A stretch of DNA of 36,231 nucleotides. Origin: Thermoproteota archaeon. GTDB lineage: Archaea; Korarchaeota; Korarchaeia; Korarchaeales; Korarchaeaceae. Location: positions 1 through 36,231 of the forward strand of contig JAOZGJ010000036.1 of assembly GCA_027491785.1 (NCBI GenBank). The letters run 5' to 3'. The notes under the pieces are model-generated. The model was given only the letters and a program-made list of their open reading frames with translations, ran no database searches and was not told the origin of the DNA. The translations under genes were made by a program, and so were the position numbers. Positions 11,571 through 25,346 of the stretch are shown here, piece by piece. Numbering within the stretch: the stretch's first letter is position 1; each line of letters starts with the position of its first letter.

Positions 11571-11767
11571 ACTATTCACCCATTTACTGATTATCTAGCA
11601 GCTATTAGGGCGAAGCTTAAAAAGAAGATTTTCACCACAGCCATAAGGAAAAGCCAAAAATCTCCCTATTATAGATGGAAAGGTTAGACATGGTAGCGCA
11701 TTAGAGTCGAATCTCACCAGAGATAAGGCTTTATTTTATCGCCTCACTAGTTGGGCAAGTGATCTCT

Positions 11768-13075
11768 ATGGATAAGATCTCTAGGGAGGACGTCATCCGT
11801 TTTTCGGACGAATATATGATGACTAACGTGGCGAGATGGTGGAAAGATGATCCTATAGTTATAGAATCAGGTAAAGGAGCTATACTCAGAGACATGAATG
11901 GGAGAGAGTACATAGACCTTCATGCCATGCACGCAGTGGCATCACAAGGATACTCCCATCCTAAGATAATAAAGGCCCTGAAGGAGCAGATGGAGAAGAT
12001 ATTCATTGTCGCTACTGATTTCTATAACATTCCCCAAGCCCTCCTTGCTAAAAAATTAGCTGAAATAACGCCCCCTAACCTAAAAAGAAGCTTCTTTGTG
12101 AACTCTGGGGCTGAAGCAGTAGAGACAGCCACTCTGCTTGCCAAGAGAGCGACAGGAAAACCCGGTTTCATAGCGCTCTGGCATGCTTTCCATGGTAGGA
12201 CCCATATGCCGAGAACCCTAACTGGGTTCTCTAAATATAAGAAAGGAATGGGTCCATTCCCCTATGCAGTTTTCCATGTGCCTAATTACTACTGCTACAG
12301 ATGCCCCCTTGGACTAGAGTATCCAAGCTGCAACCTCCAGTGCGCTAGGATGCTTGATGATGCTTTGAAGTACGGGGCACCCGAGGAAATAGCTGCCTTC
12401 ATAGCGGAACCCATTCAAGGGACTGCTGGGAATATAGTGCCTCCTAAGGACTACTTTAGAGTGGTCAAGAATATACTTGACCAGTATGGGATTCTCTTCA
12501 TAGATGATGAGGTTATCGCTGGATTCGGAAGAACTGGAAAGATGTTTGCAATAGAGCACTTTGGAGTTCAACCAGATATCATGACTATGGCCAAGGCCCT
12601 TGGCGGGGGATTCCCAGTATCCGCAGCTATAGCGAGTGAAGAAGTGGGCACGGCCTTCAAGCCCTTAGATCACTACTCCACCTATGGAGGCAATCCGCTT
12701 GCAATGACCGCTGCCCTTGCTGCTATTGAGGTGATAGAGGAGGAGAACCTAGTTGATAAAGCTGCAAAGAATGGCGAATACATGATTAAAAGGCTAAGGG
12801 AACTCATGGATCATCACGAGCTTATAGGAGAAGTTGATGGTAAGGGACTCCTCATAGGAATGGAGATTGTAAAGGATAGGAAAACTAAAGAGCCTGGAGT
12901 AGAAGAGACAACTAAGTTCAGGATAGAACTTAGGAAGAGAGGTGTCATAATAGGCCCACCTGGCTGGACAGGATCGAGAGTGAGGATAAATCCTCCCCTA
13001 GTTATAACTAGGGAGCAAATCGACCGCGCCATAGATGCCATGGACGATGCGCTTAAAGCGGTAGAGGGTAGGTAG
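11768..13075 (+). CDS. class III PLP-dependent aminotransferase (4-aminobutyrate-type)
   Basis: Fold-type I aminotransferase of the omega/GABA class, 435 aa. Visible are the phosphate-loop motif NSGAEAVETA, 'ALWHAFHGRT' with the ring-stacking aromatic region, FIDDEVIAGFGRTG with the Asp that contacts the PLP nitrogen, and the Schiff-base lysine K276 in TMAKALGGGFP. A CxxC...CxxxC cluster (C176, C179, C188, C192) follows 'VPNYY'. Mammalian GABA transaminase carries an Fe-S cluster on a CxxC near its active site, so a metal site is conceivable. The ATG at 11768 is preferred over GTG 11759 because GTGATC sits 3 nt upstream. Substrate is probably an omega-amino acid with 2-oxoglutarate as acceptor. 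Confidence 0.85.
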   Translation: MDKISREDVIRFSDEYMMTNVARWWKDDPIVIESGKGAILRDMNGREYIDLHAMHAVASQGYSHPKIIKALKEQMEKIFIVATDFYNIPQALLAKKLAEITPPNLKRSFFVNSGAEAVETATLLAKRATGKPGFIALWHAFHGRTHMPRTLTGFSKYKKGMGPFPYAVFHVPNYYCYRCPLGLEYPSCNLQCARMLDDALKYGAPEEIAAFIAEPIQGTAGNIVPPKDYFRVVKNILDQYGILFIDDEVIAGFGRTGKMFAIEHFGVQPDIMTMAKALGGGFPVSAAIASEEVGTAFKPLDHYSTYGGNPLAMTAALAAIEVIEEENLVDKAAKNGEYMIKRLRELMDHHELIGEVDGKGLLIGMEIVKDRKTKEPGVEETTKFRIELRKRGVIIGPPGWTGSRVRINPPLVITREQIDRAIDAMDDALKAVEGR

Positions 13076-13090
13076 ACTCCAACTAACCTT

Positions 13091-13098
13091 CTTTTTTG
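13091..13098 (+). terminator. T-run after the aminotransferase gene
   Basis: CTTTTTTG lies 16 nt past the stop. It is the kind of T-run at which archaeal transcription ends. Confidence 0.35.
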
Positions 13099-13129
13099 AT
13101 TCAATATTTGAAGCTATATGTAAAAACTC

Positions 13130-13138
13130 TATATAAAG
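13130..13138 (+). promoter_or_regulatory. TATA element 1 of the amino-acid importer leader
   Basis: TATATAAAG is a strong archaeal TATA match. It would start transcription near 13160 and give a long leader that includes the 15-codon reading frame at 13235. Confidence 0.35.
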
Positions 13139-13234
13139 CTAAAACTGGGGGTTCGCTTCGTTATTAAAAGGAATTTTTCCATCCAACCCGGATTCGAGTA
13201 GCTGAGAGTTATTATTTATTAGGAGGTAATTTGC

Positions 13235-13282
13235 ATGATTTTTAGCTTAATTGAACGAGGTTCCTCCTCCCGAATTGTCTAA
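13235..13282 (+). CDS. possible 15-codon leader peptide of the importer operon
   Basis: A short frame, ATG to TAA, encoding MIFSLIERGSSSRIV. It has the best Shine-Dalgarno of the region: AGGAGGT ends 7 nt before its ATG. The same AGGAGG (13221-13226) can pair with CCTCCT (13263-13268) inside the frame itself. No protein family can be assigned. The alternative is that the sequence is only a structured leader, or that transcription starts after it from the second TATA element. Confidence 0.3.
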   Translation: MIFSLIERGSSSRIV

Positions 13283-13295
13283 CTTTATATTATAG
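13283..13295 (+). promoter_or_regulatory. TATA element 2 directly before the importer operon
   Basis: CTTTATATTATAG lies about 50 nt before the ATG at 13339. Transcription from near 13312 would leave a leader of about 27 nt that contains GGAGGTG. Confidence 0.45.
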
Positions 13296-13323
13296 TCTGG
13301 TATAATCAGCGAAGCACCCTTTT

Positions 13324-13330
13324 GGAGGTG
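13324..13330 (+). promoter_or_regulatory. strong Shine-Dalgarno of the substrate-binding protein gene
   Basis: GGAGGTG, 8 nt before the ATG at 13339. This is the fullest match to the archaeal anti-SD of any large gene here and fits the high output needed for a binding protein. Confidence 0.6.
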
Positions 13331-13338
13331 TTATTTGT

Positions 13339-14709
13339 ATGGATGCAAAGACATGGACTATTGGAATAATATTATTAATCATAGGACTGGTAATTGGATA
13401 TTTTGCAGCAGCTCCAGGACAGGTACGTACAACTACTGTAACTAGCACGGTTCAGAGGACAGTCACGGTAACAAAAACGGCTGCAGCGACAGCACCAGCT
13501 ACTACGACAACTACTGCTCCTCCTCAAGTGATTAAGGTCGGTGTCCTGCTCCCATTGTCTGGAGGATCAGCGTTCTCAGGTCAGGAAGACCTTAAGGGTA
13601 TAAAACTTGCTGCCATGCACATAAACCAGAGCAAATATCCCAACATAAAGTTCAAGATAAAGTTGGTTATAGCAGATACTCAAACAAAGCCTGATGTCGG
13701 AGTTACTGAACTCAGAAGGCTTGACCAGGCAGGCGTAGTTGCGGTATTGGGATCATACAACTCCGCTGTAACATTGCCAGTAGCTAGTGAGGCTGAAAAA
13801 CTCCACCTTCCATTCGTCGATCCGGAGGCAGTAAGTGATGAGATAACAGCCCATGGATGGAAATACGTATTCAGAACTTGCGCTAATGCAAGCAAATATG
13901 CCTACGATACCCTCTGGGCTATGTCCGACATAGCGAAAGCCAATGGGGTTGATATAAAATCCGTGGCCTTAATATACGAGAACTCCGAGTTCGGGGTTTC
14001 TACTGCCAATGGCATCAAGAAGTATCTGAACAAGTTCTTCCCACATGCTAAGGTAGTCCACGATGAGGGCTATCCTGCTGAGGAGATCACTAGCATGGAC
14101 GACATGGTCTCCAAGCTGAAGGCTGAGAATCCAGATATCGTGTTCCACGTCGCTTATCTCAAGGACGCAGTTCTCTTTGTACAGACAATGAAGAAGTTAG
14201 GGTGGTATCCGAAGGCATATGTCGGAGCAGGGGCAGGTGGACAGACTAGGGTGGAGTTCATCCAGCAGTTAGGTAAGGACTCTAACTACGTATATACTCA
14301 GACCGAGTGGCAGCCCGATTTCCTCAACTCAAAGGCCTTAGCTAAGTGGGCTTGGATAGATAATGACTTTAAGAAGCTCTATGGGAGGTCTATGGTCGGA
14401 AGCACTGCTCTGAATTATGTAGGTACTTACGTGCTTGCAACAGCGATACAAAAGGCTCTCGACTCTGGAGCTAACCCAAGCAACCTCAAGGCATTCAGAG
14501 ATGCCATAAGAGATGCCCTCGAGACCATAAAGATACCTGCTGGCGAGCTTCCTCTCATGCCTTGGGGAGTCGATCTAACAGTACCTAACCATCAGAACCC
14601 CGAGGCAGCTGTAGCTATGGCCCAAATACTTAATGAGAAATTCAGAATAGTCTGGCCTCTGAAATTCGCTCCTGTTAAGGCAGTCTTCCCAGCTCCAGGT
14701 TGGGGCTAA
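13339..14709 (+). CDS. livK: branched-chain-type amino acid ABC transporter, substrate-binding protein
   Basis: Periplasmic-binding-protein type I of the LivJ/LivK (amide/leucine) family, 456 aa. It is tethered by an N-terminal hydrophobic helix (about 7-24), and a Thr/Ala-rich, probably glycosylated stalk (about 29-62) lifts the domain off the membrane, as in many archaeal binding proteins. The domain starts at IKVGVLLPLSG and shows the usual D-KGIKLA, AVLGSYNSAVTLP and 'VALIYENSEFG' elements. The ligand may be leucine, isoleucine or valine, or another amino acid or amide; sequence alone does not decide. It is first of the five-gene importer operon, with a T-rich stretch between it and livH that may trim downstream expression. 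Confidence 0.88.
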   Translation: MDAKTWTIGIILLIIGLVIGYFAAAPGQVRTTTVTSTVQRTVTVTKTAAATAPATTTTTAPPQVIKVGVLLPLSGGSAFSGQEDLKGIKLAAMHINQSKYPNIKFKIKLVIADTQTKPDVGVTELRRLDQAGVVAVLGSYNSAVTLPVASEAEKLHLPFVDPEAVSDEITAHGWKYVFRTCANASKYAYDTLWAMSDIAKANGVDIKSVALIYENSEFGVSTANGIKKYLNKFFPHAKVVHDEGYPAEEITSMDDMVSKLKAENPDIVFHVAYLKDAVLFVQTMKKLGWYPKAYVGAGAGGQTRVEFIQQLGKDSNYVYTQTEWQPDFLNSKALAKWAWIDNDFKKLYGRSMVGSTALNYVGTYVLATAIQKALDSGANPSNLKAFRDAIRDALETIKIPAGELPLMPWGVDLTVPNHQNPEAAVAMAQILNEKFRIVWPLKFAPVKAVFPAPGWG

Positions 14710-14719
14710 ACCTTCATCC

Positions 14720-14729
14720 TTTTATTTTT
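14720..14729 (+). terminator. T-rich partial terminator between binding protein and permease
   Basis: TTTTATTTTT starts 11 nt after the binding-protein stop and before the SD of livH. It could cause partial termination, which would give more binding protein than permease. Confidence 0.3.
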
Positions 14730-14748
14730 CCTACCGGAAGGTGATCCC

Positions 14749-15639
14749 ATGCTTGAGTTTAGTGCTTATGCGCAGCTCCTCATTTCATACGCTATACTGG
14801 GCGGGGTTTATGGCCTCACAGCTTTAGGGCTCTCTCTGATATGGGGCGTCATGAAGGCAGTTAACTGGGCTCACGGAGACACTCTCATGGTCGGTATGTA
14901 TACAGCTTATTGGACGGTCACCCTCTTAGGCATAGATCCCTACATAGCCGCGATAGTTGCCTTCCTCCTCCTAGGGCTATTGGGAATGGGAATTCATATA
15001 ATAGCTATAGAGCCCGTGATAGAGAAGCCTGGAGGTCACGAAGCCACACTTCTGACCACTCTGGGTATTTCAGTGATCTTGGAAAGCGCAGCCCTCATAT
15101 TATGGTCTCCTAGTCCTAGATCTTTCCCTAATGTATACAAAAACACATATCTCCAGTTCTTCGGTATGAGAACCAGTTTAGCTGAGGCAATAGCCTTCGT
15201 CATGTCAATAGTTTCGATAATAGCTGTGGATCAGCTCCTTAAGAGAGTTAAATTTGGGAAGGCCATAAGGGCAGTCTCTCAAAATCCCATAGGAGCTAGG
15301 GTAGTGGGAATAAACGTCCCTAAGATAAGGTTATTTACATTCGGCTTAGGGGTAGCGCTAGCTGGAATGGCTGGAGTCCTTGTTGCAACTTTCTATCCTA
15401 ACATAAGGCCTCTAGCCGGATATATTTGGGATATAGCCTCGTATGTCGTGGTAATATTCGCTGGTCTGGGTACTATATATGGAGTTATATTTGCAGGCCT
15501 AATAATAGGGATTACTGAGGGAATAGGCGCTATATTTCTCACTAACGCCTATAGGCAAATCCTCGTGTACATAGTATTCCTTTTGGTGCTACTGCTCAGA
15601 CCTCAGGGCCTATTCGGAAGGGCATTGAGGAGGGTATGA
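14749..15639 (+). CDS. livH: branched-chain-type amino acid ABC permease LivH
   Basis: Integral membrane subunit, 296 aa with about eight hydrophobic helices. Family marks are 'GLTALGLSLIWGVMKAVNWAHGD' near the N-terminus, with the LivH 'G...N.AHG' pattern. The cytoplasmic loop 'FGKAIRAVSQNPIGARVVGIN' contacts the ATPase. It ends with LRPQGLFG as usual. The ATG is set by GGTGATC (14740-14746). The stop at 15639 is 1 nt from the start of livM, so the two permeases are translated together. Confidence 0.9.
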   Translation: MLEFSAYAQLLISYAILGGVYGLTALGLSLIWGVMKAVNWAHGDTLMVGMYTAYWTVTLLGIDPYIAAIVAFLLLGLLGMGIHIIAIEPVIEKPGGHEATLLTTLGISVILESAALILWSPSPRSFPNVYKNTYLQFFGMRTSLAEAIAFVMSIVSIIAVDQLLKRVKFGKAIRAVSQNPIGARVVGINVPKIRLFTFGLGVALAGMAGVLVATFYPNIRPLAGYIWDIASYVVVIFAGLGTIYGVIFAGLIIGITEGIGAIFLTNAYRQILVYIVFLLVLLLRPQGLFGRALRRV

Positions 15640-15640
15640 T

Positions 15641-16612
15641 ATGAAACTCAGCAGGAAATTAGTTATAGCAGTTATATTATTCATAGTAGCTATGATACTG
15701 CCCTTTTTCACGAACGAGTTCGTCATCTCCATGTTCGTTCAAGCTTACTTTTGGGCATTCTTGGCTCTAAGCTGGGATGTGATAGGAGGATATGGTGGCC
15801 AGTTCTCCCTTGGTCATGCTGCATTCGTTGGGATAGGGGCTTATACATCAACGATCCTACTTGAAAGCTATGGGATATCTCCTTGGATAGGAATGTGGGC
15901 CGCTGGAGTATTGGCAGGACTTGCTGGCGCATTTGTAGGATTCACCTCCCTCAAATTGAGGGGTCCTTTCTTCGCCTTAGCTACTATAGCGTTCGCTGAG
16001 CTAGTCAGGCTATTCCTCCTATACTTCAAGGACGTAACTAGGGGTCCTCTAGGTATACTTATAACGCAAACTGGGCCTCAGAACATGGTGTTTGAGGAGC
16101 AATTCTATTACTACTACCTCATGTTCGCTCTAATGATAGCAGGCATAGTATTCCTCAGGTGGTTCGAGAACTCTAAATTTGGTATAGGCTTAGTTGCCCT
16201 AAGGGAGGATGAAGAGGCAGCTGAAGGGGTTGGTATAAATGTGTATAGGACTAAGATAATAGGAGCTACGATAAGCGCTTTCCTCACGGGAATAGGTGGG
16301 ACTTTCTACGCTCAATGGCTCCATTACGTTAGGCCAGACGTTTTAGTCAAGTTGGATTATTCCACCCAGATAGCAGCGATAGATGTAGTTGGAGGGGCTA
16401 GTAGCCCATATGGAGGGGTTATAGGTTCTCTAATACTGGTTCCCCTATCTCTCTACCTGAACTCCATATTCGGTGGAATGATAGCTGGTTTAAGCCTCAT
16501 ACTCTACGGAATAGTTCTTCTAGTGGTAGTCGTACTTGTACCTGGCGGTATCTACGAACTCCTGAGGAAGAGACTAAGAAAATATATGGGAGGGGGTGGT
16601 CAAAGCGCCTAA
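15641..16612 (+). CDS. livM: branched-chain-type amino acid ABC permease LivM
   Basis: Second permease, 323 aa, multi-spanning. 'LALSWDVIGGYGGQFSLGHAAFVGIGAY' is the LivM opening signature. The ATPase-coupling loop reads 'FGIGLVALREDEEAAEGVGIN'. The Gly-rich 'AIDVVGGASSPYGGVIGS' near the C-terminus is also typical. It begins 1 nt after livH and its 3' end lies at the start of livG. It forms a heterodimer with LivH as the membrane channel. Confidence 0.9.
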   Translation: MKLSRKLVIAVILFIVAMILPFFTNEFVISMFVQAYFWAFLALSWDVIGGYGGQFSLGHAAFVGIGAYTSTILLESYGISPWIGMWAAGVLAGLAGAFVGFTSLKLRGPFFALATIAFAELVRLFLLYFKDVTRGPLGILITQTGPQNMVFEEQFYYYYLMFALMIAGIVFLRWFENSKFGIGLVALREDEEAAEGVGINVYRTKIIGATISAFLTGIGGTFYAQWLHYVRPDVLVKLDYSTQIAAIDVVGGASSPYGGVIGSLILVPLSLYLNSIFGGMIAGLSLILYGIVLLVVVVLVPGGIYELLRKRLRKYMGGGGQSA

Positions 16613-16613
16613 C

Positions 16614-17339
16614 ATGCTTGAGGCTAAGGAGGTAACCAAGAGGTTCGGAGGGCTAGTGGCCCTCAACAAAGTAAGCTTGGAGATCAGAGAGCATGAACTC
16701 CTCGGCTTAATAGGACCCAATGGATCGGGCAAGACAACCCTCTTTAACGTAATTACGGGATATTACAAGCCTGAAGGAGGGAAGATATACTATAAAGGGG
16801 AGGACATAACGGGGCTCAGACCCCACGTAATAGTGAAGATGGGAATAGCAAGGACCTTTCAGATACCGAAGCCATTTGGTAGGCTAACCGTCCTAGAGAA
16901 CGTCATGTCAGCTGCCATGTATGGTAGGAAGGCTGCCTCCCGGAGTGAAGCGGAGACCATAGCGATGGAATGGTTGGAATATGTAGGGCTCGATAAGAAG
17001 GCGAATGTAGAGGCTAGAACGCTAAATGTCGTCGAGAGGAAGCTCATGGAATTAGCTAGGGCTCTCTCTACTGGTCCAGATCTGCTGCTGCTCGATGAGC
17101 TTGTTGCGGGATTGAACCCATCTGAAATGATGGATACTGTGAAACTAGTGAGGAGGCTTGTGGATGAGAAGGGATTGACGATAATAATGGTTGAGCACGT
17201 GATGAAGGCTGTAATGAGCATATCAGATAGGGTATTCGTTCTTCATAGGGGAGAGAAGCTAGCAGAAGGAAAGCCAGAGGAGATAGCGAAGGATCCTAAG
17301 GTCATCGAAGCATATTTAGGGGAGCCCATTAAGGTATAG
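16614..17339 (+). CDS. livG: branched-chain-type amino acid ABC transporter ATPase LivG
   Basis: Cytosolic ABC ATPase, about 241 aa. Walker A is GPNGSGKTT, followed by the LivG-type 'GIARTFQIPKPFGRLTVLENV'. Walker B is LLLLDE and the switch His lies in VEHVM. The ABC signature site reads LNVVERK in place of LSGGQ; deviation at this motif is common among LivG proteins. The frame is open back to GTG 16596, inside livM. The ATG at 16614 gives the standard N-terminus MLEAKEVTKRFGG and is chosen, with GGGTGGTC upstream. It pairs with LivF to power the importer. Confidence 0.9.
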   Translation: MLEAKEVTKRFGGLVALNKVSLEIREHELLGLIGPNGSGKTTLFNVITGYYKPEGGKIYYKGEDITGLRPHVIVKMGIARTFQIPKPFGRLTVLENVMSAAMYGRKAASRSEAETIAMEWLEYVGLDKKANVEARTLNVVERKLMELARALSTGPDLLLLDELVAGLNPSEMMDTVKLVRRLVDEKGLTIIMVEHVMKAVMSISDRVFVLHRGEKLAEGKPEEIAKDPKVIEAYLGEPIKV

Positions 17340-17374
17340 AGTAGATCAGATAATGAATGGTGGGTGGTTTTAAA

Positions 17375-18082
17375 ATGTTGCTTGAACTGAAGAACATAAA
17401 TGCCGGTTACGGGGATCTCCAAGTGCTATGGGACGTCAGCTTAGGAGTTGAGAAAGGCGAGATAGTAAGCCTCCTAGGTAGCAATGGAGCTGGCAAAACC
17501 ACGACGCTTAGGGTAATATCAGGCCTTCTCAGACCTATTAGCGGCAGTATTACCTTTAATGGAGATGATATAACGAAATATCCTAGCCATAGAAGGGTTG
17601 AAATGGGCTTATCCTTGGTTCCAGAGGGAAGGCAGCTCTTCCCAGAGATGACAGTAGTCGAGAACCTTGAAATGGGTGCCTACACTCAAAGAGCAAAGGA
17701 GAAGTTCCGAGATACAATGGAATGGGTTTTCACTCTATTCCCTAAGCTTAAGGAGAGAAAGAAACAACTAGCTGGTACAATGAGTGGTGGAGAGCAGCAA
17801 ATGCTTGCAATAGCGAGAGGATTGATGAGTAGGCCTGAGCTGCTGATGATGGACGAGCCTTCCATGGGATTAGCTCCAAAGCTCGTGCTTGAAATATTCG
17901 GCACGATAAAGAAGTTAAGGGATGAAGGAGTAACGATATTCTTGGTGGAGCAGAACGCTAAAGCGGCCTTGGACATTTCTGATAGGGCTTACATATTGGA
18001 AACAGGTAAGATCACATTGCATGGGCCCTCTAAGGAGCTCCTCGGTATGGATGAAGTTAGAAAAGCATATTTAGGTATCTGA
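17375..18082 (+). CDS. livF: branched-chain-type amino acid ABC transporter ATPase LivF
   Basis: Second ABC ATPase, 235 aa from this start. Walker A is GSNGAGKTT, the signature is MSGGEQQ, Walker B is LLMMDEP and the switch His position is VEQN, as usual for LivF (Gln in place of His). 'VPEGRQLFPEMTVVENLEMGAY' is the LivF landmark. An upstream in-frame ATG (17357) would add six residues. The ATG at 17375 is favoured because GGTGGGTGG lies before it and the family N-terminus starts here. It is the last gene of the importer; a T-run after the stop separates it from the convergent isocitrate dehydrogenase-like gene. Confidence 0.9.
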   Translation: MLLELKNINAGYGDLQVLWDVSLGVEKGEIVSLLGSNGAGKTTTLRVISGLLRPISGSITFNGDDITKYPSHRRVEMGLSLVPEGRQLFPEMTVVENLEMGAYTQRAKEKFRDTMEWVFTLFPKLKERKKQLAGTMSGGEQQMLAIARGLMSRPELLMMDEPSMGLAPKLVLEIFGTIKKLRDEGVTIFLVEQNAKAALDISDRAYILETGKITLHGPSKELLGMDEVRKAYLGI

Positions 18083-18105: not shown

Positions 18106-19116
18106 TCACGAGACGAGCTTTAAAAGGGTATTTATAACTTCAGCCGTTGTTGAGGATCCTCCCAAATCTGGGGTCAGTGCTAGCCTCCTATCCACTAGGT
18201 CATCGACTGCCTTCCTTAACGAGATCCCCTTTTCCCTAAGCAGCGGATCCCTCTCACCTAGCCAAATGAGCATTAGGGAGGAGGCAATCACAGCTCCCAG
18301 GGGATTCGCTATTCCCTTGCCAGCTATGTCCTCCGCAGTACCGTGGATGGGTTCGAAGGCAGCGAAATCATCTCCTATTTGAGCTGATCCACAGAGCCCT
18401 AAGCTACCAACTACTCCTGCAGCCACATCAGAGAGTATATCTCCATAGAGGTTTGGTGTGACCATGACATCGAAGGCCTTATCGACCTTAACTAGCTTGT
18501 AAGCTGCCGCATCCACTATGGCATCATCAGCTACTATATTGGGATGGCCCTCAGCTACCCTATAGAAGGACTCGAGGAAGAGCCCATCAGACACCTTGAG
18601 CACGTTTCTCTTGTGTATGGCAGTTACCCTGTTCCTCCCTTCCCTCTCAGCTAGCTTGAATGCATATTCCGAAATCCTCTCTGATTTATCCCTCGTTATG
18701 ACCCTGCTAGCTACGGCTTTCTCTCCTCCTCCCTTCACCTCCTCGATGCCGGAATAGAGACCTTCGGTATTCTCCCTCACGATCACAGTATCGATTTCCC
18801 TTAATGAGATCCCTTTATAGCTCCTGAAGGGCCTTACATTCGCATAGAGATTGAACTCCCTTCTTATCCTCAGATTGACGCTGGGATAAGTCTTTCCTCT
18901 AATAGGGGTAGCTACCGGTCCCTTAAGGAGGGCATCTGCTTCTTTAATCTTCTGAATTCCATTTTCCTCCATAGGAAGACCTGTCTCATGGAAATATCTC
19001 TTTCCAGCCTTTACATACAAGAATTCAGCCTCAATCAAGCTTTCTAAGATAGAAATAGCTCCCCCTATTATCTCAGGTCCTATTCCATCTCCTTCCATGA
19101 CCGCTATCTTGATCAT
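18106..19116 (-). CDS. NAD-dependent isocitrate dehydrogenase-like (LeuB/IDH family)
   Basis: Beta-decarboxylating dehydrogenase, 336 aa. The residues that choose the substrate read S79-V-N81-L-R-I-R85. That is the S-x-N-x-x-x-R pattern by which isocitrate dehydrogenases hold the third carboxylate; isopropylmalate dehydrogenases have hydrophobic residues there. R95, R114 and Y121 complete the site, and GDILSD supplies the metal Asp residues. In the cofactor loop HGTAEDIAGKG the Asp-Ile pair points to NAD rather than NADP. The expected reaction is isocitrate to 2-oxoglutarate plus CO2. It is last in a four-gene operon, 6 nt after the LeuD-like gene. Homoisocitrate dehydrogenase is the main alternative. 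Confidence 0.78.
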   Translation of the reverse strand: MIKIAVMEGDGIGPEIIGGAISILESLIEAEFLYVKAGKRYFHETGLPMEENGIQKIKEADALLKGPVATPIRGKTYPSVNLRIRREFNLYANVRPFRSYKGISLREIDTVIVRENTEGLYSGIEEVKGGGEKAVASRVITRDKSERISEYAFKLAEREGRNRVTAIHKRNVLKVSDGLFLESFYRVAEGHPNIVADDAIVDAAAYKLVKVDKAFDVMVTPNLYGDILSDVAAGVVGSLGLCGSAQIGDDFAAFEPIHGTAEDIAGKGIANPLGAVIASSLMLIWLGERDPLLREKGISLRKAVDDLVDRRLALTPDLGGSSTTAEVINTLLKLVS

Positions 19117-19122
19117 GGCGCC

Positions 19123-19617
19123 CTACTCCCATGGGAACTTTCTCCATCTCCTATAGTAGCTTTCAATACCGCCCTCTCGGATTATCGCCATCAGTAGGGC
19201 AGGATAAGGTGGAAAGCCCTTCTCCAGTCCCCTAGTTAGGTTCCTAACTACTCCCTTCTCTAGGTCTATCTCCATTAGATCTCCATTCTCTGCCTCTATA
19301 TCAGCTTCCACAACAGGTAGTCCAACGTTTATTGCGTTTCTATAGAAAATACGGGCGAACGACTTAGCCACTATGGCACCGATCCCAACGAGCTTGAGAA
19401 GCCTGGCCGCATGCTCCCTGCTCGAGCCATAACCGAAGTTCTTTCCAGCAACTATCACATCTCCCTCCACTACCCTTTCGCTGAATCCCCGAATCACGTC
19501 ATGGAAGACGTACTTCTTCATTTCCTCCAAGGTCCTCACCTTATACTTGAGCCTCCCAGGTATGATGTGATCAGTCGTCACATCGTCTCCAAGCTTCCAA
19601 GCCCTTCCCCTTATCAT
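19123..19617 (-). CDS. LeuD-type small subunit of an aconitase-like hydro-lyase
   Basis: Swivel-domain subunit, 164 aa. It has the start 'KLGDDVTTDHIIPGR', the motif NFGYGSSREHA with the catalytic Ser and Arg, and the usual 'AKSFARIFYRNAINVGLP'. The segment after IPGR that decides substrate (YLVY-type in isopropylmalate isomerases, YLRT in homoaconitases) here reads LKYKVRT, with three basic residues. That suits a tricarboxylate better than isopropylmalate. It overlaps the large-subunit gene by 4 nt, so the heterodimer is made in equal amounts. With its neighbours it most likely isomerises citrate to isocitrate; homoaconitase or isopropylmalate isomerase remain possible. Confidence 0.78.
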   Translation of the reverse strand: MIRGRAWKLGDDVTTDHIIPGRLKYKVRTLEEMKKYVFHDVIRGFSERVVEGDVIVAGKNFGYGSSREHAARLLKLVGIGAIVAKSFARIFYRNAINVGLPVVEADIEAENGDLMEIDLEKGVVRNLTRGLEKGFPPYPALLMAIIREGGIESYYRRWRKFPWE

Positions 19618-20867
19618 GCTAAAAACCTCCTTGGATCTGTTATCTTCCCCTTAACCGCTGTAGCAGCGGCAGTTAATGGAGATGCGAGATATATTTCACT
19701 AGTTGGGTCTCCCATCCTTCCCTTGAAATTTCTAGTGGATGTGGAGAGGACAACCTCGTTCGGTCCGAGGACCCCCATATGGGCTCCTATGCAGGGACCG
19801 CATGTCGGTGGACCTATAACACATCCAGCACCCACTAGATCCCTCACTAATCCTCCCTCCAGCATTCTTATGTACACCTCCCTGGATGCAGGAGCTGCAA
19901 TGCATCTCACACCTTGGCTGACCTTCCTCCCCCTCAATATGCGGAGGGCTTGCATGAAATCCTCCAACCTACCACCCGAGCATGAACCTATGAAGACCTC
20001 ATTCACCCCTATACCTTCGAAGTCCTCCACGGGCCTCACCCTATCAACATTCCCCGGTAGCGATAAATTCGGCTTTATTTCCTCGGCCTTGAACTCCCTG
20101 ATCTCGCGATACTCAACATCTTGATCCGGCTTTAACTCTTCTAGAGGACCTTTCACCCTTCCTTTAAGCCAGTTCAGGGTTTTCTTATCGGCAGGTACCA
20201 AGCCCACCTTGGCTCCCATCTCAACGCTCATATTGGATAGAACCATCCTCGATTCCACGCTCATCTCCTCAACAGTCGATCCCAAGAACTCCACAGCCAT
20301 GTAATTAGCTCCATCACTTCCCACATTACCTATTATCTCCAGTATAACGTCCTTGGCCATTACCCAGTCCTTGAGCTTGCCATTAACTTTCACAGCCATG
20401 CTTTCCGGTATCCTGAGCCAGGTCTTCCCCTTTGCCATCGCTATCGCGGCATCTGTGCTTCCAACCCCAGTAGCGAATGCTCCAAAAGCTCCAAGCGTAA
20501 CCGTATGGCTGTCAGCTCCAAGTATAACCATGCCCGGCTTGACTAGCCCTCTTTCAGGCAGCACCTGATGGCTTATACCGTTACCAACATCGAATATCCC
20601 TACTCCACTGGAGGATGCGAAATTCCTCATCTGAATATGGAGGGCCGCAGCTTCTGAGTGAGGAGCTGGAGCTGCGTGATCTATGATGAACCTAACCCTG
20701 TCAGGATCCTCTATTCCTATGCCCAAACTCTCTAGGACATCTATTGCGAGAGGAGCCGTTCCATCATGGGCATAGACTAGGTCTACATCTAAAGCTATGT
20801 ACTCCCCAGGATGCACCTCCTTACCAGCCTTTCCAGAGAGAATCTTCTCTGCTAATGTCATTCCCAT
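19614..20867 (-). CDS. LeuC-type large subunit of an aconitase-like hydro-lyase
   Basis: The [4Fe-4S] subunit, 417 aa. It has HDGTAPLAI near residue 35, IIDHAAPAPHSEAA, GADSHTVT, GVGSTDAA, and the three cluster cysteines C296 (GSCSGGRLED), C356 and C359 (PPTCGPCIGAHMG). The first cysteine motif is SCSGGR where most relatives have SCTNGR. Architecture is the split archaeal type (LeuC/HACN), not a full-length aconitase. An ATG at 20867 has GGTGTC 7 nt upstream; a second ATG (20861) would give an ATGA junction with the synthase gene. The substrate is taken to be citrate because of the operon partners. Confidence 0.8.
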   Translation of the reverse strand: MGMTLAEKILSGKAGKEVHPGEYIALDVDLVYAHDGTAPLAIDVLESLGIGIEDPDRVRFIIDHAAPAPHSEAAALHIQMRNFASSSGVGIFDVGNGISHQVLPERGLVKPGMVILGADSHTVTLGAFGAFATGVGSTDAAIAMAKGKTWLRIPESMAVKVNGKLKDWVMAKDVILEIIGNVGSDGANYMAVEFLGSTVEEMSVESRMVLSNMSVEMGAKVGLVPADKKTLNWLKGRVKGPLEELKPDQDVEYREIREFKAEEIKPNLSLPGNVDRVRPVEDFEGIGVNEVFIGSCSGGRLEDFMQALRILRGRKVSQGVRCIAAPASREVYIRMLEGGLVRDLVGAGCVIGPPTCGPCIGAHMGVLGPNEVVLSTSTRNFKGRMGDPTSEIYLASPLTAAATAVKGKITDPRRFLA

Positions 20868-22144
20868 ATCCTGACACCATCTACGAGCTCTGGAACGTAT
20901 TTCCTAAGTATGGAGAGTATCTCCTCATCACTGAGCGGCTCTGTTCTTCCATCCTTGAAATGCTCGAGCACATCCCTATAAGCTGCATCTAGTCTAGGAT
21001 CTCCCTTCAAACTGGACCAATCCTTTATTCCGACTCTCTTGACTAACCAGTATATGAGACCAGCTCTTCCTGAGTATGGAGTTATCTCGACAGTGTATGG
21101 TAGTCCAAGCACGTCCTCCGGATTAAATGGGAGGTATATGGCTGGATTCTTCAAGAGGCCATCTATGTGTATCCCGGCCTTAGTTCTGAAGGCGTTTCCC
21201 CCCAATAGCGGGTAGAATTCCGGTACATGGAATCCCATCTTAATGAAGAGATCTCTAGCTTCCTTCAGGGCCCTTAAGTTCAGTGGAGAGTTATCCACCA
21301 GCTGCGCATGAAATACTGCCATCGCTTCCAGCGGGCAGTTCCCAGCTCTTTCCCCTATTCCTAGAAGGGTGCAATTGGATAGAGATGCTCCATAAACCCA
21401 AGCGGCTAGGTGATTGGCGACCACCAAGTGGAAATCGTTATGTCCATGGAATTCCAACTGATCGCTCTCAAGCCCCAGATCGTCCAGAAGGAGCCTTATT
21501 AACCTAGGTATGCTCCTGGGAAGGGGAGCCTCGATGAAGGGAAGGCCCATGCCTAGGGTATCAGAGAGCTTGAATCCCACCTTTACACCGTACTTTCTGG
21601 AAAGCTTGAGCACCTTATCGAGAAATGGGAGGAGGAACCCATAGATATCGCTTCTGGTTATGTCCTCCATCGCTATCTTTAGCTTAAGTCCCATCTTCAA
21701 ACCTTCCTCTATGGCCCTAAGGTACTTCTCTTGGGCAGTTGCCCTATCCATCCCGAGCTTGTGGTATATGTGGAAGTCCGATATAGATGTCAGGACTATC
21801 GTGGTATCGAGCTTGCATTCCTTTACGAGCCTTAAATCACTTACCTTGGCTCTGACCCATCCTATGGGCTTGGGATACGAGTCCCTTTCCCTTATCTCAG
21901 AGATCACCTTCCTATCCTTTGAGGTGTATGGGAAGAGCTCTATGTCCCTCAGGGTGCCGCTGTTGTTATCCAAGTCAACGAGCACGTCATAGATCTCCAG
22001 AGCCTCCTCTACCCTGAAAGGCCTACTTCCCTGCTGACCATCTCTCAAGGTCGTATCCGTTAAGATGAGCTCGTGATCAGGGGGTCTTCTCCCGAACCTA
22101 GGCACACCTATCTCCGGAAAGAACCAATTTCCATCTCCTTCCAT
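20858..22144 (-). CDS. Re-type citrate synthase-like (isopropylmalate/homocitrate synthase superfamily)
   Basis: TIM-barrel acyl-CoA condensing enzyme, 428 aa. The metal/substrate motif DTTLRDGQQ lies near residues 30-38, HGHND supplies the metal His pair, and GIGERAGNCPLEA is the superfamily signature. Between them are stretches I associate with clostridial Re-citrate synthase rather than LeuA: 'ELFPYTSKDR', 'LTSISDFHIYHKL', 'MEDITRSDIYGFLLPF' and 'AGIHIDGLLKN'. There is no LeuA C-terminal leucine-binding domain, so no leucine feedback. The expected reaction is oxaloacetate plus acetyl-CoA to citrate. The ATG at 22144 follows GGTGATG with normal spacing (the frame is open to a GTG at 22156). 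First gene of the operon. Homocitrate synthase is the alternative. Confidence 0.75.
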   Translation of the reverse strand: MEGDGNWFFPEIGVPRFGRRPPDHELILTDTTLRDGQQGSRPFRVEEALEIYDVLVDLDNNSGTLRDIELFPYTSKDRKVISEIRERDSYPKPIGWVRAKVSDLRLVKECKLDTTIVLTSISDFHIYHKLGMDRATAQEKYLRAIEEGLKMGLKLKIAMEDITRSDIYGFLLPFLDKVLKLSRKYGVKVGFKLSDTLGMGLPFIEAPLPRSIPRLIRLLLDDLGLESDQLEFHGHNDFHLVVANHLAAWVYGASLSNCTLLGIGERAGNCPLEAMAVFHAQLVDNSPLNLRALKEARDLFIKMGFHVPEFYPLLGGNAFRTKAGIHIDGLLKNPAIYLPFNPEDVLGLPYTVEITPYSGRAGLIYWLVKRVGIKDWSSLKGDPRLDAAYRDVLEHFKDGRTEPLSDEEILSILRKYVPELVDGVRIWE

Positions 22145-22179
22145 AAGCATCACCACATCGCACTTGCTTTATCGATGAA

Positions 22180-22190
22180 TTATTTATATG
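22180..22190 (-). promoter_or_regulatory. TATA element of the citrate synthase operon
   Basis: The minus strand reads CATATAAATAA, about 40 nt before the ATG at 22144. Transcription would start near 22160 and leave a short leader containing GTGGTGATG. The rest of the gap to 22376 is AT-rich with no feature I can name. Confidence 0.5.
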
Positions 22191-22376
22191 TTCCTTTTAT
22201 CGTTAGATAATATACGAAAATCGAACCAATCGATATTAGCCCTACACCGTAAACTCATTCGACGAATTACGTCAATGCTGAATACGAACTTAAAAAGTTT
22301 TCGCTCAGGATAGGTAATATATCCAATGATGGAAACTAGGAGATTCGTAAAAATTAGTAAAAATTAATTATGGAAA

Positions 22377-23966
22377 TCATCCGGCCTCAGCAGGAGCTGT
22401 AGCTGCTCCTCCCACTTGACTACCTCTCCTGAAGAGGGACAATATAGCTACTACGAGAATGGCCACCAGCAGGATGAATATACCTCCTAATACTACTGGC
22501 GATGCTATGGCTTGGCTAGAAGGCACCTGAGTTATGGTAACTGTCTGAAGGGCACTAATCGTTTTAGTAATCGTTACGACCTCCGGCCTCTTAGTGGTGG
22601 CGATGCTGGTGCTAGTTATGGTCGGGGCCTTAACCCTTACTAGGAGAGAGGATATAGCTACAGTCCCTCCTCCTGAAGCAGAGATAGTCACCTTGTAATC
22701 CCCAGGTTTTGCTCCTTTGAGACTCATGTTGAGCAAGCCCAGCTCGCCCGGTTTCAGCTTTGGGGTGATGGAATAGGATATCCCGCTCGGCATACCTATC
22801 ACACTTAGAGATGCCTCTACCGAGCTAGTTGAATTCAGATAGATAGCTATCTCAGCTTTAGGATTATCTCTTGAAAGGATTACCTCTCTCGGAGTTATTG
22901 ATAAGGATAGATTTGTTATAGGTTTCTCGACGTATACTAGAATACTCCTACTCTTAATCAGGGTGTCCCCTCTGTAAAGGTCCACAGATATACCATAAGT
23001 CCCAAGGATCGCGTTTTTAGGGATAGTGACCCAGAAGTCCAGATACTTCGTTTCCTCTAGCTTGGTGGGGTAGCGCGAGATGTACCAGCCTAAAGGCCCG
23101 GATACCTTTAGAGTCAACGGTTCCGGGCTTTTCCCACCAGGTATCCCGACCGTGACCCTGAAATAGAAAGTCCCGCCTGGCTCAGACTTGACCATTATCG
23201 GGTATACTATTAGGTTTATCTCCTCCGGCTTTGGAGCTTCTTTAACGGTTAGCGAAGCATAAGCCCTACTACAGGCGCCATTGCTGCATCCTTCCACTAC
23301 TATGCTGTAGTTCCCCGGTGACATGCTCGTAGTATCTACTCTCAGCTGCGATGTATAGGTGTAGCAGGGTATGGCCGGGCAGGAACAGGAAACGGCTCCA
23401 GGACACATGGGATTTGGATTGAATGTATAGGAGACGCAAGAGGGACATAGAAGTCTGAGATATATTGGAGAAGAGAAACCATTGTAAGGCGAAGCCTGAA
23501 CGGTGAAAAGGGCCTTTTCCCCTTTAAAGACCGACTGATGGGTCGGTGAGATCGATAGGGTGAATTCGGGCGATGGTGGGAGGACCTCAAGGGTAACATC
23601 AACGTAAACGCTTTGGGATGTGGAAGGATCCCTCCCCCTGATGGTTATCGTGTAGACACCAGGTGGTGTGTAAACAGACGTCCTCACAGTCATCACGGAA
23701 TCCGTGTCCCCAGTAGGGTTGAGCGGGTTATCAGAGAATGTTATGGAGGTGGAGGGAGGTTCAAAGAAGGCTGTGAGGTATACATCGTTTGAGAATCCGG
23801 GCGTAAGCACATTCAAGCTTATGTGAAAGTAGGCAGATTCCCCTGCCCTCACCTTCACATAGGTGGGAGTAACGCTCAGGTCGAAGTCGGCAGCATTCGT
23901 TGACACTAAAATGCCAGGTAAAAACAGGAGCATCAGAAGTAAGAACCAGAATCTTTGGCGGATCAT
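22377..23966 (-). CDS. large secreted, membrane-anchored Ig-like-repeat protein
   Basis: Surface protein of 529 aa. It has a signal peptide (to about residue 25), then four to five Ig/NEW3-like beta repeats of about 90-100 residues. Each has a 'GxxA/TYFxVxV' opening and a 'PPGxYTITIxG'-type ending (for example MSPGNYSIVVEG and LKPGELGLLNMSLKG). A Thr/Ser/Val-rich stalk (about 445-490), one membrane helix (about 492-515) and a short tail follow. One repeat carries a cluster of seven cysteines (about residues 169-200, containing CPSC and CSC), unusual among its neighbours and suggestive of disulfides or metal. There are no enzyme motifs. A cell-surface or adhesion role is inferred only. Confidence 0.68.
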   Translation of the reverse strand: MIRQRFWFLLLMLLFLPGILVSTNAADFDLSVTPTYVKVRAGESAYFHISLNVLTPGFSNDVYLTAFFEPPSTSITFSDNPLNPTGDTDSVMTVRTSVYTPPGVYTITIRGRDPSTSQSVYVDVTLEVLPPSPEFTLSISPTHQSVFKGEKALFTVQASPYNGFSSPIYLRLLCPSCVSYTFNPNPMCPGAVSCSCPAIPCYTYTSQLRVDTTSMSPGNYSIVVEGCSNGACSRAYASLTVKEAPKPEEINLIVYPIMVKSEPGGTFYFRVTVGIPGGKSPEPLTLKVSGPLGWYISRYPTKLEETKYLDFWVTIPKNAILGTYGISVDLYRGDTLIKSRSILVYVEKPITNLSLSITPREVILSRDNPKAEIAIYLNSTSSVEASLSVIGMPSGISYSITPKLKPGELGLLNMSLKGAKPGDYKVTISASGGGTVAISSLLVRVKAPTITSTSIATTKRPEVVTITKTISALQTVTITQVPSSQAIASPVVLGGIFILLVAILVVAILSLFRRGSQVGGAATAPAEAG

Positions 23967-24050: not shown

Positions 24051-25346
24051 CTACACGTAAAGGTATGCCCTATATTCTGCATCGCTGGGCCAAGAGCCAA
24101 CATCTGAAGCTTCCTTCCTCTTCAAGCTAAGGTAGGATTCCAGAGAGGCCTCATCGAATATATCTCTTAAGTAGGAGTTATCCGATTCCAACGCATCTAA
24201 GGCCTCATGAAGGCTTCTCGGGAGTCTCTTAACATCCGGGTTCGCTGAATAAACGTTTTCATCGAATGGATCTCCAGGATCTATCTTCCTTCTTATCCCG
24301 TCTAGTCCCGCGGAAAATGAGGCAGAGAACGAGAGGTAGGGATTACAGCTCGGATCTGGGACCCTAAACTCTATCCTCTTCGAGTCCCTTACGCCCTTCC
24401 TATATACAGGAACTCTCACAGCGGCGCTCCTATTTGCTCTTCCCCATACCGCGTATATTGGTGCCTCATATCCGGGTACTAACCTCTTGTAGCTGTTTAC
24501 GGTGGGGGCAACTATTGCGGATAGGGAGGCTATGTGATCCAGTATCCCCCCTATAAAGTATCTGCCTTCCTGACTCAGCTCGGCGTAGCTGTCACTTGCA
24601 TCATAGAAAACATTTCCTTCGGAATTCCATAAGCTCATATGAATATGCATTCCGTTTCCATTATCTCCCGGTACAGGCTTGGGCATGAACGTTGCTATAA
24701 ATCCCATCTCGCTAGCTACGACCTTAACAACCTTCTTGAGCCTCATCACGTTATCTGCCTCTCTCAATATGGATGATGCCTTTATTGAGACCTCAGATTG
24801 ACCTACACCAACCTCATGGTGGGTTACCTCTGGGCTCAAGCCTAACCCGGTAAGCTCATCCAATATCCTGAGCTTCAGCTCGTGTAAAGGATCGGACGGA
24901 GGGGAGAAATGGTAGTTTATCTTAGGCACACTTCCAAGCGTTGAAACAGGCTTCAAGTCATTGGTCAATACAGTGAACTCCATTTCCGGCCCGACAAAGC
25001 CTCTCATTCCTTCCCCTCTCAACACCTCCTCCATCTTAGCTGCTATGAACCTAGGATCCTTCGGGGATCTTTTGCCACCGAATGGCTCCCATATCTCACA
25101 GAGGAGGGAGAGAACTCCATCCCTTATTACGGCGGTATCCGGATCAGGGATTAGGAGGGCATCGCTCCACTGTATCTCAGAGAGCCCAACGCTACTGGCA
25201 TCGAATGCTCCGCTTCTCCTCGATTTAAACGTATTGAAAGAGAGGATCTCCCTTCTTAAGGTACCGAAGAGATCCACGTACTCTAGCTCTACGAATCTAA
25301 CTCCCTTTGATTCAGCCTCCCTCAGCACATCATCGATTGTTGGCAT
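24051..25346 (-). CDS. glnA: glutamine synthetase, type I
   Basis: ATP-dependent ligase making glutamine from glutamate and ammonia, 431 aa, cytosolic. The active-site glutamates appear as E121/E123 (GPEMEF), E178 (HHEV) and E185. The ATP/glutamate motif is GDNGNGMHIH, followed by NSYKRLVPGYEAP and RVP. The segment normally read as GQHE/GQNE is GQSE here (S184). The usual adenylylation loop (NLYDLPPEE) is replaced by 'NVYSANPDVKRLP', so control by adenylylation is unlikely. It is alone on its transcript. A TATA element 24 nt before the ATG implies a leaderless mRNA. It lies beside the operon that should make 2-oxoglutarate, its carbon precursor. Confidence 0.92.
   Translation of the reverse strand: MPTIDDVLREAESKGVRFVELEYVDLFGTLRREILSFNTFKSRRSGAFDASSVGLSEIQWSDALLIPDPDTAVIRDGVLSLLCEIWEPFGGKRSPKDPRFIAAKMEEVLRGEGMRGFVGPEMEFTVLTNDLKPVSTLGSVPKINYHFSPPSDPLHELKLRILDELTGLGLSPEVTHHEVGVGQSEVSIKASSILREADNVMRLKKVVKVVASEMGFIATFMPKPVPGDNGNGMHIHMSLWNSEGNVFYDASDSYAELSQEGRYFIGGILDHIASLSAIVAPTVNSYKRLVPGYEAPIYAVWGRANRSAAVRVPVYRKGVRDSKRIEFRVPDPSCNPYLSFSASFSAGLDGIRRKIDPGDPFDENVYSANPDVKRLPRSLHEALDALESDNSYLRDIFDEASLESYLSLKRKEASDVGSWPSDAEYRAYLYV

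Follow-up and report, generated by a model that had tools for sequence, protein, structure and literature searches.

The window, a 36,231-nucleotide stretch of Thermoproteota archaeon DNA (contig C94 of the 1.79-Mb, 114-contig archaeal assembly G000, 95% complete with 7% contamination), carries a leuABCD-like four-gene operon whose main job we read, with a probability of about 0.52, as the formation of citrate and its conversion to 2-oxoglutarate. At the family level, the sequence features best support assignment of the gene products as a Re-citrate synthase, a split aconitase and an NAD-dependent isocitrate dehydrogenase (ICDH). In the proposed pathway a Re-type citrate synthase of the homocitrate/isopropylmalate-synthase superfamily would form citrate from oxaloacetate and acetyl-CoA, a split LeuCD-type aconitase would convert citrate into isocitrate, and an NAD-dependent LeuB-type dehydrogenase would decarboxylate isocitrate to 2-oxoglutarate, which would then feed glutamate and glutamine. 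We infer these reactions, their stereochemistry and a link to the neighboring gene glnA; the gene order and its conservation, the position of the synthase in the tree, the residues of the pocket and the cofactor site, and the genome complements are read directly. The operon consists of:

20858..22156, minus strand: synthase of the Re-citrate-synthase lineage (DRE-TIM/HMGL), 432 aa
19614..20867, minus strand: LeuC-type large subunit of the proposed split aconitase, 417 aa (TIGR02086, 560 bits, cut-off 410)
19123..19617, minus strand: LeuD-type small subunit of the proposed split aconitase, 164 aa (TIGR02087, 173 bits, cut-off 109)
18106..19116, minus strand: LeuB-type beta-decarboxylating dehydrogenase with S-x-N-x-x-x-R and the NAD-type motif HGTAEDIAG, 336 aa

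The order synthase–LeuC–LeuD–dehydrogenase, with a 10-nt overlap, a 4-nt overlap and then a 6-nt gap, is exactly as an earlier note on this DNA had described, and only the synthase start codon is uncertain (candidates GTG 22156, ATG 22150 and ATG 22144, the last being the one used in that note).

Pfam analysis of the synthase returned an HMGL-like domain and a short HCS_D2 match only, bearing out the claim that it has no LeuA regulatory domain. The protein misses the NCBIfam cut-offs for homocitrate synthase (HCS; TIGR02146 125 versus 413.6 bits, TIGR02660 167 versus 462.9 bits), scores far under cut-off with the isopropylmalate synthase (IPMS) models, and no Re-citrate-synthase model is among the NCBIfam matches to the operon proteins. 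Alignment to the solved HCS structures 6ktq and 3a9i and the IPMS structures 3rmj and 6e1j reveals intact catalytic and metal-binding residues (equivalents of R12, E137, T166, H195 and H197). At the site of Thermus thermophilus HCS His72, one of the pocket sites that in HCS structures line the oxo-acid side chain, the window enzyme has a tryptophan (IGWVRA), where the solved HCSs have histidine and IPMSs have leucine or isoleucine; the IPMS hallmarks are absent, with no C-terminal regulatory domain and with pocket Trp/Lys in place of Leu/Glu. In a maximum-likelihood tree of 90 synthases, which includes no biochemically proven Re-citrate synthase (C. kluyveri, Syntrophus), the window protein falls within a Trp-type clade with Ignicoccus, Thermoproteia, Methanomethylicales, Eubacteriaceae and methanogen proteins (support 100/99), separate from HCS, IPMS and citramalate synthase. 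Forcing it together with Sulfolobus-type HCSs was rejected by the approximately unbiased (AU) test (delta lnL 218, p-AU 9e-60). Tree placement, AU test and Trp pocket thus agree in supporting the earlier proposal of a Re-citrate-synthase-type enzyme outside the homocitrate, isopropylmalate and citramalate synthases.

The LeuC- and LeuD-type proteins both score above their family cut-offs, and the closest solved relatives of the LeuD-type subunit are archaeal small subunits of isopropylmalate isomerase (IPMI) and homoaconitase. A basic LeuD specificity loop had been offered as evidence for substrate choice; the loop reads RLKYKVRT in the window and RLKYSSGS or RLKYSVGS in genus mates, and because it varies within the genus we dropped it as a marker, the only sequence feature tested on which the earlier note did not match. 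The dehydrogenase carries the isocitrate pattern S-x-N-x-x-x-R at YPSVNLRIRREFNLYANVRP, and its best Protein Data Bank match is the NAD-ICDH 6lky. Its motif YPSVNLRIR compares with RSVNVTLR and SSINVAMR in solved ICDHs and contrasts with FGAIRYLR in T. thermophilus homoisocitrate dehydrogenase (HICDH) and EVILPLR in the genome's own LeuB on contig C41, and S-x-N is present in every operon dehydrogenase whose motif was read, whether linked to lysine genes or not. The cofactor site HGTAEDIAG has the Asp-Ile of NAD-type enzymes, versus HGTAPKYAG with the Lys-Tyr of the NADP type in the genome's large ICDH. The protein lies under the NCBIfam ICDH cut-off (PRK08997, 315 versus 510 bits) and likewise under those of the HICDH models. 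Motif and cofactor site support a predicted ICDH-like, NAD-type enzyme.

The operon is conserved well beyond the window. Of 16 sampled genomes of the genus, 15 encode the synthase and the one without it is only 70% complete; the synthase also occurs in one genome from a different genus of the same family. We assume the genus to be Korarchaeum, since we take genus mate G010 to be Candidatus Korarchaeum cryptofilum. The four-gene block stands beside glnA in syntenic arrangement in G001, G003, G010, G012 and G013, in line with the glnA adjacency noted earlier, and the retention of gene order and neighborhood up to glnA argues that the arrangement is not due to chance. In a Thermoproteia-class sample, 53 of 229 genomes encode a Trp-type synthase, mostly within the same four-gene operon. 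In G010–G013 (96–99% complete) we found no Si-citrate synthase (PF00285), full-length aconitase or large ICDH. Each of these genomes encodes LeuC and Iso_dh twice, once in the leucine operon and once in the operon described here, the latter being the sole visible route from oxaloacetate to 2-oxoglutarate.

Ignicoccus and Pyrodictium speak for citrate formation by the Trp-type clade. Use of a Re-citrate synthase has been reported for Ignicoccus on organism-level evidence, in the part of PMC12016533 that cites Jahn et al. 2007, and I. hospitalis (G183) encodes a lone Trp-type synthase together with a separate His-type HCS, an IPMS and a citramalate-synthase-like protein. Pyrodictium delaneyi has been published as having most tricarboxylic acid (TCA) cycle enzymes but lacking citrate synthase (PMC5556600). 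P. delaneyi Su06 (G238) carries the four-gene operon plus a separate His-type HCS, as does its relative G240, and since a true His-type HCS is present neither genome needs the operon to make homocitrate. G181 and G189 have no His-type HCS and two Trp-type genes each. In G189, a distant archaeon, the second Trp-type copy (L288, G189:C1:878612-879883) directly adjoins a glnA-like gene, which lends independent support to the glutamine/glutamate link. In G022 (L222, L223; 2.9 Mb) the single PF00682 protein is a Trp-type synthase, while operon-type LeuCD occurs in two sets and there is a single LeuB-type dehydrogenase. A Methanomethylicales genome (G064, L201:1489-2871) encodes a His-type HCS fused to a C-terminal Lrp/RAM-like domain matching PH1519, a fusion whose sequence suggests feedback control by an amino acid.

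Besides the make-up of the tree, several observations weigh against the citrate reading. The window's genome encodes elsewhere a Si-citrate synthase, a full-length aconitase (AcnA) and an NADP-type ICDH, so that a 2-oxoglutarate route through the operon is redundant there. It also holds a LysW cluster of LysW, LysY, LysZ, LysJ, LysK and two ligases, one with the ArgX-like signature GFMKA (GFMVA in 3vpb) and one with NAARV, as in the bifunctional Thermococcus LysX (5k2m), the role of the ligase signature being taken from PMC10433800. With both LysX and ArgX present, alpha-aminoadipate and hence homocitrate should be needed; we found no His-type HCS in this genome, its other HMGL proteins being LeuA and two paralogues with broken active sites. 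In relatives the operon is embedded in lysX-lysYZ or flanks it (G022, G061, G222, G220) or is found next to it (G171), and no His-type HCS was found in any of these five genomes. Finally, at the site equivalent to T. thermophilus Ser135 the residue is Ala/Ser/Thr, which matches HCS, instead of the histidine of Ignicoccus and methanogen enzymes. A small residue there was considered as a decisive mark of homocitrate use and dropped, as the P. delaneyi enzyme has threonine in a genome with a true HCS too.

These findings amend the earlier picture in two respects. The operon had been described as a self-contained oxidative arm. The genome does have another, true leuABCD operon, its LeuA with the regulatory region, on contig C41, but the Si-citrate synthase, AcnA and ICDH mean that the arm is not the genome's only one. 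Contamination as the source of these three genes was ruled out by orthologues 76–88% identical in genus mates of the window's subclade, whose members have Si-citrate synthase and mostly also AcnA and a 434-aa-type ICDH. The lysine reading, which the earlier note ascribed to automatic annotation, returns with the LysX and ArgX genes, the missing second HCS and the operon's place in the lysWXYZ cluster of relatives. A homocitrate or dual role is thus a serious rival in the window's genome, and certain Trp-type enzymes may now serve to make homocitrate, or may accept both oxo acids.

A tentative alternative, which we hold to be unlikely, is that the same four enzymes carry both oxaloacetate to 2-oxoglutarate and 2-oxoglutarate to 2-oxoadipate, for glutamate and lysine. 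G010–G012 and G022 have no other candidate for either step, lacking PF00285 and another HCS while encoding LysX; depending on the lineage, the operon adjoins lys genes or glnA; and the paired Trp-type genes of G181 and G189, with no His-type HCS, fit such use. An isocitrate–homoisocitrate dehydrogenase family is recognized in NCBIfam (NF040855), with a match of 253–284 bits, far under the cut-off of 680. However, no residue has been demonstrated to allow both substrates, the dehydrogenase carries the isocitrate pattern, and glutamate or lysine may instead come from peptides. The wider proposal that one operon running two elongation rounds stands in for citrate synthase, aconitase and ICDH and also for the homocitrate branch of lysine synthesis, where an archaeon lacks both, is a doubtful one.

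Equally improbable in our view is a role in lysine synthesis alone, with the Re-citrate-synthase lineage as the source from which HCS, homoaconitase and HICDH were recruited for the alpha-aminoadipate/LysW pathway. In its favor, the classical enzymes of the window's genome already make 2-oxoglutarate, the LysW-pathway genes there stand without another HCS, and the lys-linked operons of G022, G061, G222 and G220 occur with a LysX of Asn-Thr (AAA-type) signature where readable. G013, which has no LysX, also has damaged LeuC/LeuD genes (L221:10934-12261), with a 407-bp deletion and a 1-bp frameshift relative to G010 in DNA 96.5% identical; the lesion is either genuine or an assembly error. Retention of the operon in G013 without LysX was at first taken to oppose the lysine reading, an argument withdrawn given the broken genes. 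Against lysine synthesis alone stand the replacement of the HCS histidine by tryptophan, the AU rejection of grouping with HCS, the low HCS model scores, the isocitrate-type dehydrogenase and the coexistence of the operon with a true HCS in P. delaneyi and G240. A leucine or isoleucine operon of the isopropylmalate or citramalate route, suggested by the leuABCD-like gene order, is very improbable given the true leuABCD on C41, the Trp/Lys pocket of the synthase in place of Leu/Glu, and the S-x-N of the dehydrogenase versus EVILPLR in the C41 LeuB.

Two side observations concern these pathways in the genus. The ArgX-type and LysX-type ligases of the window's genome are encoded side by side at L220:1743-5464 (G000 C96); Si-citrate synthase is present in genus genomes with both ligases and absent from the near-complete genomes that have a single ligase or neither. 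LeuA paralogues on G000 C46 (L002) and C88 (L003) and at L203–L207 (G001, G010, G013, G011, G012) keep the regulatory region, have Arg12 changed to Thr/Ser and His195/His197 mostly replaced, and are conserved in the genus; they are probably catalytically dead and possibly regulatory.

Upstream of the citrate operon candidate lie the following features:

22157..22200, minus strand: TATA-like AT-rich element CATATAAATAA, about 35 nt upstream of the synthase GTG, as read from the sequence
22377..23966, minus strand: 529-aa secreted/membrane protein located between glnA and the operon, a position shared by most of the genus
24051..25346, minus strand: glnA, type I glutamine synthetase, upstream neighbor of the operon (TIGR00653, 436 bits, cut-off 429)

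The TATA-like element would be compatible with a single promoter for the operon; promoter and terminator scans gave no signal above chance level. On the other side, positions 11759-18082 adjoin the operon and encode a class-III aminotransferase and a complete branched-chain amino-acid ABC transporter, a block missing at the same spot in G010, G012 and G013, which indicates an insertion or deletion between subclades.

Neither Re-citrate synthase nor split pathways derived from leuABCD are new. Re-citrate synthases of the C. kluyveri, Dehalococcoides, Heliomicrobium and Ignicoccus type are, like the window enzyme, HMGL-superfamily proteins unrelated to Si-citrate synthase; two divergent groups have been reported, often misannotated as homocitrate or isopropylmalate synthase (PMC12016533). 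In contrast to those systems, the window has a tight operon with LeuCD- and LeuB-type genes, alanine rather than histidine at the Ser135 site and a Si-citrate synthase in the same genome. The upper lysine branch of Thermococcus and Thermus (HCS, LysTU, HICDH) draws on the same four enzyme families, with lysXYZ adjacent to the operon in some relatives, whereas here the synthase lies outside the HCS clade with a Trp pocket and the dehydrogenase is of isocitrate type. The Dehalococcoides mccartyi TCA operon (ICDH KB1_0495 plus putative TCA genes) is likewise a biosynthetic, incomplete TCA branch to 2-oxoglutarate, but its ICDH is mainly NADP-dependent and lies outside any leuABCD-like unit (PMC4720418). 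Methanogen AksA/D/E/F also elongate 2-oxoacids iteratively with leuABCD paralogues; the synthase clade and dehydrogenase motif differ here, and a coenzyme B role is not expected. In the open-licence literature searched we did not find the four-gene unit described in Korarchaeum/Desulfurococcales-type archaea or linked to the missing citrate synthase, and earlier descriptions are possible.

If the citrate reading is true, the operon would provide P. delaneyi with the citrate synthase that it is published as lacking (PMC5556600), and would account for the same gap in several related archaea of hot springs. It would supply a glutamate route for Korarchaeum cryptofilum-like genomes without Si-citrate synthase, and it would flag a gene set that annotation pipelines label as leucine or lysine synthesis. 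A single elongation module is an old idea on early metabolism, and one could then test whether leucine synthesis, lysine synthesis and the oxidative branch of the citrate cycle are one such module with altered side-chain specificity.

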